Shown: positions 13,230 through 38,978 of the stretch, piece after piece
Layout: every line of letters starts with the position of its first letter
How positions within the stretch are numbered: position 1 is the first letter of the stretch
NCBI GenBank assembly: GCA_017999615.1
Contig: JAGNLM010000011.1
Coordinates: 1-58,044, forward strand
Direction: 5' to 3'
Length of the DNA stretch: 58,044 nt
Source of the DNA: Gammaproteobacteria bacterium
GTDB taxonomy: Bacteria > Pseudomonadota > Gammaproteobacteria > JAABTG01
Notes under the pieces: model-generated
Told to the model about the DNA's origin: nothing
The model's input: only the letters and a program-made list of their open reading frames with translations
Databases searched by the model: none
Position numbers and translations under genes: made by a program

Positions 13230-14336
13230 ATGAAGCTCACTGTCGCTCGAGAGGCCTGGATGCCGGCACTGCAAATGGCCTTCGGGGCGGTAGACCGAAA
13301 GCAGGCGGTACCGATTCTCGGCAACCTTCTCCTCGAAGCCACTCGCGGCAAGGTGGAGGTGTGGGGTACGGACCTCGAGATCGAGGTCAGCGCGACTGCG
13401 CCCGCCGAGGTCCAGGCCGAGGGGAAGACGACCATCCCGGCGCGCAAACTCTGGGAGATCTGGCGAAGCCTCCCGCCCGGCTCTGTGGCTGAACTCTCCG
13501 CCGGCGGTGGCCGTGCGACCATCCGGTCCGGTCCAACCCGCTTTTCGTTGACCACGCTGGAGCCCGACGGATTCCCTCTCACCCAGGGCTTCGAGGCCCT
13601 GGTCACCGTGACGCTGCCGGCAACCGAGCTCAAGAGCTTGCTGGAACGTGTGCATTTCGCGATGGCGCAACAGGACGTCCGGTACTACCTGAACGGACTC
13701 CTGCTGGAGATCGGTGAAGGCAGGCTCAGGGCGGTGGGTGCGGATGGGCACCGCCTGGCGCTCTGTGAAACGAAGCTCCTCGGCAACGAAGGAGAGCTCC
13801 TGCAGGCCATCGTGCCCCGAAAGGCCGTCGGGGAGCTCATGCGCCTGGGCCTCAATGAGGCTGAAGGGGCAACCCTGGAAATCGGGGCCCAGGCCCTTCG
13901 GGTGACCGCGGGGGACGTGAGATTGGTCGCGCGCCTGATCGAGGGACGCTTTCCCGAGTATCAGCGGGTGATCCCGGACCCGGACGTTTGGGACAAGCAC
14001 GTGCTCGTGGACCGTGACGACTTCCGGCAGGCGCTTTCCCGAGCGGCGATCCTGGCGAACGAGCGTTACCGCGCCGTGAGGTTGGCACTGACCAATGGAC
14101 GGCTCGGGATCCAGTCGGAGAATGCGGAGCACGAGCAGGTCGAGGAGGACCTGGAGGTGGACTACGAGGGGTCTCCTCTCGTGATTGGCTTCAACGTCGG
14201 ATACCTCATCGAGGCGGTATCCGCCATCCCGGGCGAGCGTGTGCGCCTGTGCCTCAATGACGACAACAGCAGTTGCTTGCTGCTGGCAGAGACCGACAGC
14301 GCCTGCCGCTACGTCGTCATGCCCATGAGGCTCTGA
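13230..14336 (+). CDS. dnaN: DNA polymerase III beta subunit (sliding clamp)
   Basis: A 368-residue ring-forming processivity factor with three clamp folds; E. coli DnaN is 366. The opening MKLTVAREAWMPALQMAFGA, the segment KQAVPILGNLLLEA and the C-terminal MPMRL ending that lines the partner-binding pocket are all typical. It follows the presumed oriC. An AAGGA lies 13 bases before the ATG, a rather long spacing. recF begins 21 bp downstream. Confidence 0.98.
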   Translation: MKLTVAREAWMPALQMAFGAVDRKQAVPILGNLLLEATRGKVEVWGTDLEIEVSATAPAEVQAEGKTTIPARKLWEIWRSLPPGSVAELSAGGGRATIRSGPTRFSLTTLEPDGFPLTQGFEALVTVTLPATELKSLLERVHFAMAQQDVRYYLNGLLLEIGEGRLRAVGADGHRLALCETKLLGNEGELLQAIVPRKAVGELMRLGLNEAEGATLEIGAQALRVTAGDVRLVARLIEGRFPEYQRVIPDPDVWDKHVLVDRDDFRQALSRAAILANERYRAVRLALTNGRLGIQSENAEHEQVEEDLEVDYEGSPLVIGFNVGYLIEAVSAIPGERVRLCLNDDNSSCLLLAETDSACRYVVMPMRL

Positions 14337-14357
14337 TTTGCTGAGGACTGCGTCGGC

Positions 14358-15426
14358 GTGCAGCTGACTCGGCTGGAGGTCAGGGACCTCCGCATTCTCC
14401 GGAGCGTCGCGCTCCGCCCTCACCCGATCCTCAACGTCATTGCCGGCGGCAACGCCGCCGGCAAGACCAGCATACTCGAAGCCATCCACGTACTGGGCAC
14501 GGGCCGGTCCTTCCGGTCCCGGGACGTGGAGCCTCTCGTGCGCTGGGAATCCACCGAGCTCAGCGTGTTCGGCGAGGTAATGGACCCGGGTGGAACCCTG
14601 CGTCGGATCGGGGTGGTGAAGGGGGGACCGGAACCGCGCATCCGCGTCGATGGACAGGACGTATCCGGTGCGGCCGTTGTAGCTCGGCTCATGCCCGTGG
14701 CCGTGTTTGCGCCGGACAGTCTGGAGATCGTGGAAGGTTCGCCTGGCGAGAGACGCTCTCTCATGGACTGGGCATTGTTCCACGTGGAACCAGAGTACGG
14801 TCCCTCGATCCTCCGGTGCCGCCGAAGCCTCCGCCAGCGAAACGCAGCCCTGCGCTCCGGCACAACCCGCCGCGCAGCTGCGGTCTGGGAGCACGAACTC
14901 TGCGAAGAAGCGGACCGCATCGATTCCTGGAGGATGAGGTACGCGCAAGAGGTGTTGCCATTTGTGCGTGAGTCCCTGGCACGGCTCACGCCCATACCCC
15001 TCGAGATCCTCTACCGCAGAGGCTGGCCGGCGGGCGAGAGCATCGCCAGTACCCTGGAGCGCACCTGGCCCTCCGACGCAGCACGAGGCTGGACAACCCA
15101 TGGCCCCCACGTCGCCGACCTCTCGTTGCAGGTCGCGGCTCACCCTGCGCGGGAGACGCTGTCGCGCGGCGAAAAGAAGGCCCTGGCGGCAGCACTCGTG
15201 CTGGGCCACGTGGAATACGTGCGATGCACGTGCAACCGCCAACCCGTCCTGCTCGCCGACGATTTCCCCTCGGAATTGGACGCGGGCGCCCGGCAATGGT
15301 TTCTCGAAGGCATACGGGGGACGGGCTGCCAGACCTTCCTCACGGTACTGGAACCCTCCGCAGTCTCCCTTCCTTCCGCGTCGGAATACGGAATGTTCCA
15401 CGTGAAACAAGGTCGCCTGACCGAAC

Positions 15427-15434
<8 letters not shown>
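14358..15434 (+). CDS. recF: DNA replication and repair protein RecF
   Basis: A 358-residue SMC-like ATPase that loads RecA at gaps with RecOR. LTRLEVRDLRILRSVAL and the Walker A GGNAAGKTS open the protein. The ABC-type signature is in ETLSRGEKKALAAALVLGH, and Walker B-like PVLLADDFPSELD follows. The GTG at 14358 is the first start in the conserved frame. The coding sequence contains two parS-like palindromes (14776-14791 and 15394-15409). The stop codon overlaps the gyrB promoter -10. Confidence 0.97.
14776..14791. promoter_or_regulatory. parS: parS-like ParB-binding site 1 (inside recF)
   Basis: TGTTCCACGTGGAACC matches the bacterial parS pattern TGTTNCACGTGNAACA at 15 of 16 positions, counting N as free (last base C instead of A). 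It lies about 1.6 kb from the presumed oriC. parA and parB are not in the window. Confidence 0.65.
15394..15409. promoter_or_regulatory. parS: parS-like ParB-binding site 2 (end of recF)
   Basis: TGTTCCACGTGAAACA fits TGTTNCACGTGNAACA at every position. It sits near the recF 3' end, 2.2 kb from the presumed oriC, where ParB loading and SMC recruitment sites are usually clustered. Confidence 0.8.
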
Positions 15435-17882
<2,448 letters not shown>

Positions 17883-34807: not shown

Positions 34808-35323
34808 TCAGTCGAAGCGGCCGGCGTCCAGCCTCTCGAGCCAGGGGCGATCGACCTCGTCGAAGCGCAGGATGCGCCGTCCCCGGTGGTCGCGCAGGAA
34901 CTCCTGCGCGTCGGCGCGGGTGGCCAGCGGGACGAGCTCGTGGCCCATGGGGCCCAGCACGTCCGAGCCGACGACGTACCACGCCTCCCGGGCGTCGACC
35001 CGGGCGAGCCCGTAGTATTCGGTGACGGCGACGGTCCTCACGCCGTCGGCCGGGCGGTCGGGCTCGTAGCGCCGCAGGTCGAGCAGGTACTTGCAGAGGT
35101 CCTTCGCGCCGTCGAAGTGGACGGCGTGGCCGTCACGCCAGAGGACCGTCGCCACCCACTCGGGGTAGCGGGCCACGAACATCCCGCAGACCGGACAGGT
35201 GTCCCGCGGGCCCGGTGGCGGTGTCTCTACCGGTCCCGCCCGGGGGGTGGCCGGCACAGCCGCCAGCACCAGCACCGACAGGGTCCCCAGTCCCCCCTGC
35301 AACCACCTTCTTCGGCTCGTCAT
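34808..35323 (-). CDS. nosL: NosL-family copper-binding protein with twin-arginine-like signal
   Basis: A 171-residue NosL-like protein. NosL binds Cu(I) and delivers it to nitrous oxide reductase in denitrifiers; no nosZ is visible here, so its client is unknown. C43-x2-C46-G-M48 (CPVCGMFV) is the NosL metal motif, followed by HAVHFDGAKDLCKYL. The N-terminus SRRRWLQGG resembles a Tat signal and there is no lipobox cysteine, unlike lipoprotein NosL. I chose the ATG at 35323 (GGAG just upstream). The 4 bp overlap with the TlpA-like gene places it last in a six-gene operon. Confidence 0.88.
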   Translation of the reverse strand: MTSRRRWLQGGLGTLSVLVLAAVPATPRAGPVETPPPGPRDTCPVCGMFVARYPEWVATVLWRDGHAVHFDGAKDLCKYLLDLRRYEPDRPADGVRTVAVTEYYGLARVDAREAWYVVGSDVLGPMGHELVPLATRADAQEFLRDHRGRRILRFDEVDRPWLERLDAGRFD

Positions 35324-35835
35324 CGCTCCACCGTCTCCCTCGCCTGCAACAGGGGCTCGACCATCCCGAGGAAGGTCTCCGGGCTCGACTCCCCCACGAT
35401 CCGGCCTCGCACCACGCCCGCCGGGTCCACCACCACGGTCACCGGCAGGCCCATCACCCCGTAGGCCCGGGTCACGGCCCCTTCGCCATCGAGCAGCACC
35501 TCGGCGCTGAGGTCCAGCTCCCGGGCGAAGCGCGCCACCGCGTCCCGGGGCTGCATGACGTTCACCGCGAGGAGGACGAGGCCCCGGTCCCGGATCCCGC
35601 GGTAGACCGGCTCCAGCGCGGTCATCTCGGGCCGGCAGTAGGGGCACCAGTCGGCCCAGAAGCGGATGGCGACCACCCGCCCCGGGTAGCCTCCGGGGAA
35701 GGCGGCCGTGCCCCCCTCGAGCCGGGGCAGCGTGAAGGCGGGGGCCTGCATTCCGGTCCGGACCAGCAAGGGGGCCTGGTCACAACCGGCGGCGACCGTC
35801 AGCACGAGGGCCAGGGCGAGCAGGAGGCGGGTCAC
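35320..35835 (-). CDS. TlpA/ResA-like thioredoxin-fold lipoprotein
   Basis: A 171-residue thiol-disulfide protein predicted to be membrane-anchored on the periplasmic side. The signal ends in a lipobox LTVAAGC (C18). The redox motif is W-C64-P-Y-C67 in FWADWCPYCRPEM, and the cis-proline region is VMGLPVTVVVDPAG. The family reduces apocytochrome or copper-protein thiols. The GTG start overlaps the stop of the 8-TM protein (GTGA), and its own stop overlaps nosL. Context suggests it keeps NosL or client cysteines reduced for metal loading; that is inference. Confidence 0.88.
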   Translation of the reverse strand: MTRLLLALALVLTVAAGCDQAPLLVRTGMQAPAFTLPRLEGGTAAFPGGYPGRVVAIRFWADWCPYCRPEMTALEPVYRGIRDRGLVLLAVNVMQPRDAVARFARELDLSAEVLLDGEGAVTRAYGVMGLPVTVVVDPAGVVRGRIVGESSPETFLGMVEPLLQARETVER

Positions 35836-36833
35836 GGCAGGAGCTCCAGGTGGGAGCGCAGCACTGCCCAGGTGGCGAGGAGGTAGAAGGCCCCGAGCAG
35901 GACGGTGGCCCACCCGGCGCAGCGCGCGGCGCGCCGCGGCGCGGCAAGGGCCAGGCTCGGGACCCGGGCGAAGGGGCCCGAGACCGCGGCGGCGAGGGCG
36001 CAGGCGGTGCCGGCAAAGAGCGCGGAATACAGCGGGTAGCCCAGGTAGTCGTACCCTCCCTTCAGCAGGCAGAAGGGGCAGTGGTGGTGAGGGCTCTCGT
36101 AGACGTAGACGGAGAGGAAGGACACCACGCCCGCCAGGGCGGCCGCAAAGGCGGCCACGGCGGCCACCCCCAGCGCCGCCCCGCCGCGGCCCGCGGCCCA
36201 CCCGGTCCGGGCCGCGAGGGCCAGCACGAAGGCCCCGGTGAGGTAGAAGGCCGCCATCGTGGGGCCGGCGGGCAGCCCGGCGACCTCCGAGGCCACCCCT
36301 GCGCCCTCCACGCTGAAGAGCGACCCGCAGCAGGAGGTGATGACCTCGGGCGAGAGCCCCGAGAAGTGGAGGAACTGCAGCAGGGCCTCGGCGACCGCGA
36401 CCGGAGCCAGGCCGACCAGGAGGGCGTACTTGCCGCGCACCAGGGGATAGTCATCGCCGTCCCGGTCCAGCCGGTCGAGGGCGAGCCAGACCGCGGCCCC
36501 GAAGAACAGCGCGACCTTCAGGCCGAGGGCAGGGAAGCCGAAGGGGGTCGCGTTCAGGGTCCCGGTGGCGCACATGGCGCCCGTGATCTGGCTCGAGAGG
36601 GACTCCGCCGCGAAGACGAAGAGGCCGAGCGACAGGGCCTGGGCGGCCAGCACCAGGCCCAGCACCGCCGAGACCAGCGAGGTCCCGCGCTCGAGCCGGA
36701 TCTGCCCCTCGCTCCCGCTCGCCAGGTCCCAGCGGCGCACGACCCGGACCGCGAACGGGACCGCGAGCGCCAGCCCCACGGTCACCAGGGAGGAGACGAC
36801 CAGCAGGGCCAGCACGGGGGGATGGAGCAGCAT
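35832..36833 (-). CDS. Unrecognised 8-TM membrane protein with cysteine-rich periplasmic loops
   Basis: I do not recognise this 333-residue protein as a named family. Eight hydrophobic helices are visible. Arg/Lys-rich loops after helices 1, 3, 5 and 7 predict an outside N-terminus. The loops after helices 2, 4 and 6 are then periplasmic and carry C88, the C168-C169 pair, and HHHC252-P-F-C255. Two more cysteines, C278 and C305, lie in or near helices 7-8. The ATG at 36833 was chosen as the start of hydrophobic sequence. It sits between an ABC ATPase gene and a TlpA-like lipoprotein (GTGA overlap), suggesting a metal- or thiol-relay role. Confidence 0.8.
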   Translation of the reverse strand: MLLHPPVLALLVVSSLVTVGLALAVPFAVRVVRRWDLASGSEGQIRLERGTSLVSAVLGLVLAAQALSLGLFVFAAESLSSQITGAMCATGTLNATPFGFPALGLKVALFFGAAVWLALDRLDRDGDDYPLVRGKYALLVGLAPVAVAEALLQFLHFSGLSPEVITSCCGSLFSVEGAGVASEVAGLPAGPTMAAFYLTGAFVLALAARTGWAAGRGGAALGVAAVAAFAAALAGVVSFLSVYVYESPHHHCPFCLLKGGYDYLGYPLYSALFAGTACALAAAVSGPFARVPSLALAAPRRAARCAGWATVLLGAFYLLATWAVLRSHLELLP

Positions 36834-36862: not shown

Positions 36863-37540
36863 TCAGGCGGCGCCTTCGACCCGCCCGTCCCGCAGGGCGA
36901 CCACCCGGTCCACCAGGGTCGCCTCGCACACCAGGGGGTCGTGGCTCGTCAGGATCACCGTGCGCCCCTCGGCCTTGAGCCCCGCGACGATCTCGAGGAA
37001 GTCGCGCGAGTGCCCGGTATCCAGGTTTGCGGTGGGCTCGTCGGCGATCAGCACCTGGGGGTCGTTCACCAGGGCGCGCGCGATGGCGGCGCGCTGGGCC
37101 TCGCCCCCCGAGAGCCACTCCGACCGGGCCCCGGCCCGGTCCGCGATGCCGAGGCGCCCGAGGAGCCTCTCGGCCCTCGCCCGCAGCTCAGCGTAGGGTG
37201 GGGCCTCCGGGTAGGCGGGCAGCATGACGTTCTCGAGCACGCTGAGCCCCCGGACCAGGTGGAACTGCTGGAACACGAAGCCGAAGGTGCGCCGGCGGAG
37301 CTCGGCCAGGAACTTCTCCGGGAGGGCCGAGACCAGGCGGTCGCCCAGGCGCACCCGCCCCGAGGTCGGCCGGGCGAGGCACCCGACGAGCGACACCAGG
37401 CTCGTCTTTCCCGACCCGCTCGGCCCCCGGAACACCGTCACGGACCCCGGCTCGATGGTGAGCGTGACGCCCCGGACGGCCCAGACCTCGTTCGGGCTGC
37501 CCTGGTGAAAGGCCTTGCGGACGTCCTCGAGCCGGATCAC
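36863..37540 (-). CDS. LolD/MacB-type ABC transporter ATP-binding protein
   Basis: A 225-residue ATPase of the FtsE/LolD/MacB class. Walker A is GPSGSGKT (39-46), the signature is LSGGE (143-147), and Walker B is VLIADEP (163-169) followed by TANLD. The GTG start at 37540 overlaps the stop of the FtsX-like permease (GTGA), so they form one transporter. This class usually extrudes lipoproteins or drives periplasmic work by mechanotransmission rather than importing solutes. Located in the nosL cassette; it is not a NosF-type ATPase. Confidence 0.9.
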   Translation of the reverse strand: MIRLEDVRKAFHQGSPNEVWAVRGVTLTIEPGSVTVFRGPSGSGKTSLVSLVGCLARPTSGRVRLGDRLVSALPEKFLAELRRRTFGFVFQQFHLVRGLSVLENVMLPAYPEAPPYAELRARAERLLGRLGIADRAGARSEWLSGGEAQRAAIARALVNDPQVLIADEPTANLDTGHSRDFLEIVAGLKAEGRTVILTSHDPLVCEATLVDRVVALRDGRVEGAA

Positions 37541-38673
37541 TCCTGCGCCCCCCGCATCACCGCGTCGGGGTCCGCGACGGCGGCGCGCCACGTGGGCACC
37601 AGGGTCACCGCGGTGTAGGGCACGACTGTGAGCGCGAAGAGGGCCAGCACCCCGGCGGGCTCCACGTGGGGGACCAGCCGGAACTCCGGGTAGAGCGTCG
37701 CCCAGCCCTTGAGGAGTGGCGCGAGCAGAGGGGCCCCGGCCCAGAAGACGTGGGCGTAGGCGAGGACGTAGCCCACGAGGAAGGCGGTGAGGGAGACGAC
37801 CGCGCCTTCCCAGAGCTTCATGCGCAGCACGTCCCCGGTGTCCCACCCCACGGCCTTGAGGATGCCAATCTCGCGGCGCTCCTCGGCCGAGAGGCCGGAG
37901 GCGCGGTCCCAGGCGAAGATGGCGAAGGCGAAGAGTGCCGCGCTGAGGAGCAGCAGCCCCACCCCCTCGCGCCAGGCGAAGACCGCCTCGTAGGTCCTCG
38001 CGACCTCCTCCCGGAGCACCGGCCGGGTGTCGGGCAGGGCCCGGGTGACCTTGTCCGCCACCGTACGCACCTCGCGTGCGTTGCGCACCCGCAGGGCGAG
38101 GTCGGTGTAGAGGCCCTCCGGCACGCCGAGCCAGCGCCGGAAGTCCCTCTCGGCGACCAGGAAGAGGTCGGCGGTGAGGAGCTCGCTGGCCGGGTCCAGC
38201 AGGTCCGTGACCCGCAGCGCGAGCGGCTCGCCCCGGGTGTCGCGGAAGGCGACGACGTCCCCCACCGCGAGGCCCCGGGAGCGGGCGACGCCCCGGCCGA
38301 TGCGGGCGGAGCCGGCGGGCGGTGGGTCGGCCGCCGGCACGAGCACGGTGTAGTTGGCACCGCTGGCGGGGTCGTAGTGGTAGCCCCAGAGGCGGGGCTC
38401 GGCAGCGGCCACGCCGCGGATCTTTCGGACCTCTTCGAGATAGGCGGCGGGGATCGGGTCGTGGCGTCCTGCGACGAGCCGCTGGACGGTCAGCTCGGGC
38501 GCGCCCTCCAGCAGCGCCCTGGCCTCCCGGCGCAGGGCCGACCCGAAGAGCAGGACAGAGGCGAGGGCGAAGACCAGGGCCCCGTACACCAGGAGCAGCG
38601 AGAGGTTGCGGCCCTTGCGCCGCAGGAGCGCCGCCAGCGTGTAGTCCAGGAGGTAACGCTGGCGCGCGAGCAC
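37537..38673 (-). CDS. FtsX/MacB-type ABC transporter permease
   Basis: A 378-residue permease with the LolC/MacB layout: one N-terminal helix (residues 25-47), a large periplasmic domain (50-230), then three C-terminal helices. EERREIGILKAVGWDTGDVL after the second helix is the FtsX-family motif contacting the ATPase. It starts 5 bp after the stop of the small His-containing protein and overlaps its ATPase gene. With only one permease gene, the transporter would be a homodimer. Substrate unknown; co-occurrence with NosL suggests copper-site assembly. Confidence 0.88.
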   Translation of the reverse strand: MLARQRYLLDYTLAALLRRKGRNLSLLLVYGALVFALASVLLFGSALRREARALLEGAPELTVQRLVAGRHDPIPAAYLEEVRKIRGVAAAEPRLWGYHYDPASGANYTVLVPAADPPPAGSARIGRGVARSRGLAVGDVVAFRDTRGEPLALRVTDLLDPASELLTADLFLVAERDFRRWLGVPEGLYTDLALRVRNAREVRTVADKVTRALPDTRPVLREEVARTYEAVFAWREGVGLLLLSAALFAFAIFAWDRASGLSAEERREIGILKAVGWDTGDVLRMKLWEGAVVSLTAFLVGYVLAYAHVFWAGAPLLAPLLKGWATLYPEFRLVPHVEPAGVLALFALTVVPYTAVTLVPTWRAAVADPDAVMRGAQE

Positions 38674-38678
38674 CGGTC

Positions 38679-38978
38679 TCAGGGGGCCCGCAGGTGGGGC
38701 GGCGGCGGGACCACCGCCCCGGAGGGGAAGTGGTCGAGGGCCCCGGGGTGGTCCTGGAAGGCGGCGTGACGGTCCGCCAGCGCGGGGTGCCGCGTGTAGC
38801 GGGCCGCCGTGGCCAGCGCGAGGTCCGTCAGGCCCAGCTGCCCGCCGAGCGCCCCGGGTCCCACGGCCCCCTGCCCTGCCGGTCCGCGCAGGACCGCATC
38901 CGCCAGGGTCCCCCCCGCGAGAAGGGCGAGGCCCGCGAGAACCGCAAAGAATCGGTCGGACCGGCGTCGGCGGGACAT
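38679..38978 (-). CDS. Small exported or membrane-anchored protein with spaced histidines
   Basis: A 99-residue protein with no family I can name. MSRRRRSDRF plus a hydrophobic stretch (11-27) forms a signal peptide or N-terminal anchor. The C-terminal part has histidines at 64, 71, 77 and 83 in RHPALADRHAAFQDHPGALD and the residues that follow, then a Pro-rich end. It is the first gene of the nosL cassette, 5 bp before the permease. There is no clear ribosome-binding site. Metal binding is a guess from the histidines and the context. Confidence 0.7.
   Translation of the reverse strand: MSRRRRSDRFFAVLAGLALLAGGTLADAVLRGPAGQGAVGPGALGGQLGLTDLALATAARYTRHPALADRHAAFQDHPGALDHFPSGAVVPPPPHLRAP

Follow-up and report, generated by a model that had tools for sequence, protein, structure and literature searches.

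ABC proteins of the MacB/LolCDE class do not carry solute through the inner membrane; they power conformational changes at its periplasmic face. MacB, LolCDE and FtsEX act on drugs, lipoproteins or peptidoglycan hydrolases. In the NosDFY-NosL system an ABC ATPase and a permease acting on the periplasmic side are combined with NosL. NosL is a Cu(I) chaperone of attomolar affinity, and the CXXCXM motif characterizes its clade II form (PMC6530538). In the TlpA-ScoI-CoxB pathway of Bradyrhizobium, copper-site cysteines are reduced by TlpA ahead of metallation (PMC7558416). The iron uptake locus 1649-1656 of C. jejuni encodes FTR1, P19, a DUF2318 protein, two permeases, an ATPase and two thioredoxins, and genes 1651-1656 have been tested by deletion (PMC6083913).

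An operon that shares features with each of these systems is found in a 58,044-nucleotide stretch of gammaproteobacterial DNA, the whole of which is referred to below as the window. The genes lie on the minus strand in the order given here, with 4-nt overlaps at three of the five junctions.

38679-38978, minus strand: p6, a small N-terminally anchored protein of 99 amino acids with a conserved extracytoplasmic tail and no Pfam family
37537-38673, minus strand: FtsX/MacB-like ABC permease of 378 amino acids (Pfam FtsX, E 1.4e-9); 4-nt overlap with the ATPase gene
36863-37540, minus strand: ABC ATPase of the MacB/LolD/FtsE type, 225 amino acids (Pfam ABC_tran, E 2.3e-28)
35832-36833, minus strand: eight-transmembrane-helix (8-TM) protein of 333 amino acids, ATG start, TGA stop
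35320-35835, minus strand: TlpA/ResA-type thioredoxin lipoprotein (Pfam AhpC-TSA, E 2.5e-22) with lipobox Cys18 and CPYC at 64-67
34808-35323, minus strand: NosL-family protein of 171 amino acids (Pfam NosL PF05573, E 5.5e-28); 4-nt overlap with the TlpA gene

The operon and comparable known systems

The permease of the window matches FtsX (PF02687) with 38.5 bits, above the curated cut-off of 25.5, and the NosL protein matches PF05573 with 98.4 bits (cut-off 24). The best NCBIfam matches of the ATPase are MacB, FtsE and LolD, every one of them under its curated cut-off. The TlpA gene has a GTG start and overlaps the stop of the 8-TM gene by 4 nt; its product is thioredoxin-like by its AhpC-TSA and Redoxin profiles, its CxxC and its lipobox, with C64 and C67 present in 69 of 69 aligned sequences and the lipobox Cys18 in 68. 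The NosL motif CPVCGM, of the clade II type CXXCXM, is found in all 62 aligned sequences; the NosL of the window has no lipobox and no cysteine ahead of this motif. The p6 protein is unnamed and matched no Pfam family, and its tail has the consensus LTDLALFTEARYTRH..QAD.H.AFQDHP.ALEHFPSGSL.PP. No riboswitch or other RNA was found. Elsewhere in the window (13230-17882, plus strand), dnaN, a RecF-like gene and gyrB stand in a row in DNA of lower G+C content (63-67%), so the chromosomal origin region is probably nearby.

Like NosDFY-NosL, the operon joins an ABC ATPase and permease, predicted to act on the periplasmic side, to a NosL-family Cu(I) chaperone. Unlike that system it has an FtsX/MacB-type permease and no NosD, it additionally encodes the cysteine-bearing 8-TM protein, TlpA and p6, and it is not linked to nosZ. 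With the C. jejuni locus it shares a polytopic membrane protein bearing cysteines, an ABC permease and ATPase, and thioredoxins alongside a periplasmic metal-binding protein. However, the C. jejuni genes concern iron and include FTR1 and P19, and the membrane protein they encode has a DUF2318 domain with the pattern CxxC-x13-CxxC-x14/15-C. PF10080 (DUF2318) matched none of 62 homologues of the 8-TM protein and nothing in the host genome, and the 8-TM protein has one CxxC and a NosL partner; it is set apart from C. jejuni 1651 by the PF10080 domain only. The TlpA-type thioredoxin, which could reduce copper-binding cysteines before metallation, and the SCO1 gene that neighbors the operon in several loci recall TlpA-ScoI-CoxB (PMC7558416), although that pathway is described without an ABC motor or an 8-TM protein. 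The ATPase and FtsX permease families are common to MacB, LolCDE and FtsEX, which have neither a cysteine-rich 8-TM subunit nor a copper chaperone. A literature search, with subscription journals mostly outside it, found no paper joining NosL with FtsX and TlpA, and an earlier description under another name is possible. The operon, with two families (the 8-TM protein and p6) that no library searched names, is probably an undescribed module.

Topology and conserved residues of the 8-TM protein

A preliminary description of this DNA had called the product of 35832-36833 an unnamed 8-TM protein with cysteines in each of the predicted periplasmic loops 2-3, 4-5 and 6-7, and had failed to match it to DsbB, VKOR or CcdA. 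All of these points hold. The open reading frame is exact, Kyte-Doolittle analysis gives eight hydrophobic segments, and the AlphaFold2 model has eight long helices (pLDDT 90.2, pTM 0.90). Charge counts over 62 homologues obey the positive-inside rule: lysine plus arginine average 4.3, 3.0, 2.2 and 3.3 in loops 1-2, 3-4, 5-6 and 7-8, whereas loops 2-3, 4-5 and 6-7 average 0.4, 0.65 and 0.97; the termini are also low. This charge pattern indicates an N-out/C-out protein with its cysteine loops in the periplasm. No internal duplication of TM1-4 as TM5-8 was supported (hhalign probability <1%). The 8-TM protein is a real, unnamed inner-membrane protein.

Its cysteines are residues 88, 168, 169, 252, 255, 278 and 305, and residues 249-251 are histidines. 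By prediction C88, CC168-169 and HHHCPFC249-255 lie in periplasmic loops, and the invariant residues on that side are M87-C88, C168-C169 and H250-H251-C252-x-x-C255. The five loop cysteines are invariant across 62 to 87 relatives, mostly of 44-54% identity, and C278 and C305 are unconserved. All five are among the 48 invariant columns of 333, for which the probability by chance is about 5e-5 for five given positions. Part of the set of relatives had been found by scanning genome contigs with peptide patterns that included CC and PHH motifs, and conservation was therefore rechecked on 17 relatives from a whole-genome search that used no such patterns. All 17 retained M87, C88, C168, C169, H250, H251 and C252, and 16 retained C255, which bears out the invariance that the preliminary description had proposed to check. 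In the most remote homologue (L103, profile E 6.7e-32) the motif reads HHCPFD, with aspartate in place of C255 and the other ligands intact, which means that not every member of the family can form a CxxC disulfide.

The periplasmic side holds 27 of the invariant columns, as against just 9 in the transmembrane cores, where none is charged, sulfur-bearing or histidine. This distribution suggests that the active part of the protein is probably outside the membrane and makes a metal path through the membrane unlikely. The predicted cytoplasmic loops also carry conserved motifs, W35..GS..Q..LER and D123..DYPLV..K, which would be candidate contacts for the ABC subunits.

The 8-TM protein matched no Pfam family at E <= 1, no NCBIfam model and no sequence in the PDB, and no known transporter family was found for it. 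Among the families listed for the 62 homologues at E <= 0.1 there was no match to DsbB (PF02600), VKOR (PF07884) or CcdA/DsbD (PF02683, PF13386). The PDB contained no confident fold match to the whole model or to its second half (residues 168-333). The best Foldseek hit to the whole model had E 0.076 and a probability of 0.23, and the best to the second half had E 0.51. The second half is modeled as a 4-TM bundle in which the CxxC opens a short helix, and for it Foldseek and VIA list only generic helical bundles; the top rows of VIA-align 2 are designed or generic four-helix bundles. CcmF, CcsBA, cytochrome b561 and COX3 were rejected as fold relatives of the whole model, since their scattered Z scores of 9-11 are no evidence where helical bundles are concerned.

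Conservation and genomic context of the operon

The 8-TM gene is encoded with, and co-evolves with, the genes for the FtsX/MacB-type permease, the ATPase and p6, usually together with TlpA and one or two NosL genes. In 80 loci from public genomes, 70 of which could be assessed upstream, the ATPase gene directly precedes the 8-TM gene in 70/70, the permease gene is upstream in 68/70 and p6 in 64/70. TlpA is encoded downstream in 58 of 69 loci, and a NosL-family gene occurs somewhere within the locus in 58 of 69; in some carriers TlpA or NosL is not adjacent. Besides betaproteobacteria, the core is kept by one alphaproteobacterial MAG, one Nitrospirae MAG and one remote class. Cultivable carriers include Sedimenticola selenatireducens and Thauera aminoaromatica. 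Distance matrices correlate with that of the 8-TM protein at 0.91 for the ATPase, 0.88 for FtsX, 0.84 for NosL and 0.70 for TlpA, values that partly reflect species history because all the genes share common ancestry. No plasmid-borne copies of the 8-TM protein or the permease were found.

Recurrent additional genes encode a second, Tat-type NosL-family protein, a DsbD_2 protein (a separate gene, distinct from the 8-TM protein), a P1B-ATPase with an HMA domain, and SCO1. Every one of these genes that a Pfam family covers has to do with copper or thiols; two others (c20 and c25) have none. The second NosL-family protein (for example L023:9366-10040) has a twin-arginine-like signal and the motif CPYCGMDR...HHSRHLVQYDDGLVDGTCSIHCL; it is present in 60 of the 80 loci and absent from the operon of the window. 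In betaproteobacteria, two families of ~210 and 120 amino acids without a Pfam match lie between the operon and the P1B-ATPase gene (L073:9147-9791 and L067:8813-9181).

A remote relative in genome G370 (L122:7950-11054) retains the core of p6, FtsX, ATPase and 8-TM genes and has aspartate instead of C255. No TlpA gene was seen there in 16 kb, and a heme-copper oxidase is barely indicated in the genome. That loss of TlpA tracks loss of C255 was considered and rejected, as this is the one case and the other carriers without an adjacent TlpA retain C255.

An FNR-type box (TTGATnnnnATCAA, at most one mismatch) precedes p6 in 12 of 64 loci, compared with 36 of 1941 control windows (p ~1e-8, the loci being related and not independent). 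Perfect palindromes TTGATnnnnATCAA occur ~50-110 nt upstream of p6 in four loci of Sedimenticola and Thiohalomonas relatives (L060, L074, L078 and L059), and boxes with one mismatch precede the operon in eight more. No box of this kind occurs in the window. Carriers are enriched for cbb3 oxidase, with the subunit CcoO found in 16 of 18 carriers and in 22 of 42 non-carriers. The host genome contains cbb3, a NorB-like protein (assigned by score only) and no NosZ.

Proposed function and alternative explanations

The preliminary description had suggested that the CC pair and HHHCPFC could bind copper or pass electrons to the TlpA-like lipoprotein. This is partly supported, in that a copper role fits the Met, Cys, Cys-Cys and His-His-Cys-x-x-Cys ligand set and the NosL, TlpA, SCO1 and P1B-ATPase partners. 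The FtsX/ATPase motor and NosL, which that description did not mention, are better clues to function. The 8-TM protein probably belongs to an undescribed machine for extracytoplasmic copper handling that would serve respiration under anaerobic or low-oxygen conditions.

Other explanations account for parts of the data. The 8-TM protein might be a thiol-disulfide oxidoreductase of the DsbB/VKOR type that passes electrons between quinone and TlpA through its CxxC and CC, copper being incidental. The vicinal CC, the position of the CxxC in the second-half model, where a short periplasmic helix begins, and the frequent TlpA neighbor (58/69 loci) would all suit such an enzyme. We nevertheless regard it as rather unlikely given the lack of any DsbB, VKOR or DsbD profile match, the N-out topology and the aspartate that replaces C255 in a distant homologue despite retention of the rest of the operon; it also leaves NosL and the ABC motor unexplained. 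An inner-membrane copper importer, exporter or tolerance pump, with the 8-TM protein as transmembrane path or sensor, would explain why the ABC genes adjoin the 8-TM gene and why P1B-ATPase genes are adjacent in some betaproteobacteria. This is very unlikely, as the transmembrane cores have no invariant charged, sulfur or histidine residue, and FNR-type boxes precede some loci while a copper-stress context is not obvious. Moreover, FtsX/MacB-type permeases are not known to form inner-membrane metal channels.

The NosL partner also raises the prospect of a dedicated assembly factor for nitrous oxide reductase, that is, an alternative NosDFY. Indeed, NosZ occurs in 10 of 18 carriers but in 3 of 42 chosen non-carriers, and class-wide it is weakly enriched in carriers (5/11 against 56/358, p 0.02). 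However, NosZ is absent from eight of the 18 carriers examined, namely the host genome (99% complete) and seven others, so it is not an obligate client; the 8-TM protein is missing from 56 of 61 NosZ genomes; and the operon is unlinked to nos genes. As a dedicated role this is highly improbable and largely refuted. No other cuproenzyme gene is linked to the operon, and because the flanking genes in relatives have mixed housekeeping functions no client enzyme is fixed by them. Among the single clients examined, none is present in every carrier.

The Cu(I) chaperone function of NosL, the role of TlpA in Bradyrhizobium and the very similar part list of C. jejuni lead us to propose that Cu(I) is relayed by thiol-redox chemistry and that an FtsX-type ABC complex drives this relay. 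On balance we think it likely, if by no great measure, that the 8-TM protein serves as the membrane subunit that supplies redox function and metal ligands to an undescribed machine for copper trafficking in the periplasm. In its favor are the synteny and correlated distances of the operon, its copper partners, the invariant periplasmic residues, the FNR-type boxes and the enrichment of CcoO and NosZ in carriers. Against it are the aspartate of L103, the carriers in which TlpA or NosL is not adjacent, the lack of a linked or universal client, and the window's lack of an FNR-type box. The best reading of the operon as a whole, from sequence, is that it would encode an ATP-driven, thiol-redox-coupled periplasmic copper relay with a logic like that of NosDFYL but built from unrelated parts. 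TlpA, plus the DsbD_2 protein where present, would hold the C252/C255 and C168/C169 thiols reduced; by analogy with Bradyrhizobium TlpA, the membrane protein would more likely receive electrons from TlpA than donate them. The reduced Cys/Met/His set would bind Cu(I), and ATP hydrolysis by the FtsX-type complex would power Cu(I) transfer between the 8-TM protein and NosL. Copper thus handed over may load respiratory cuproenzymes at low oxygen, with a client that would vary between hosts: NosZ in some, perhaps cbb3 oxidase or others elsewhere. More tentatively, p6, the FtsX-type ABC complex and the 8-TM Cu(I)-thiol relay may be assembled into a single complex. TlpA would recharge it, and NosL-family chaperones would receive copper from it for use by several cuproenzymes.

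How bacteria move and insert periplasmic copper while keeping none of it free as Cu(I) is an open question, and low copper limits N2O reduction. The module is conserved in several hundred genomes of denitrifying, sulfur-oxidizing and symbiotic bacteria, and M87, C88, C168, C169, H250, H251, C252 and C255 of the 8-TM protein are concrete residues for mutation. If the components do form one complex, it would parallel, with different components, NosDFYL in the handling of copper and the FTR1-P19-associated ABC system in that of iron. As the parallel with the iron locus FTR1-P19 suggests, the pairing of FtsX-type ABC motors with cysteine-bearing membrane proteins and thioredoxins could be a general means of handling redox metals outside the cytoplasm.
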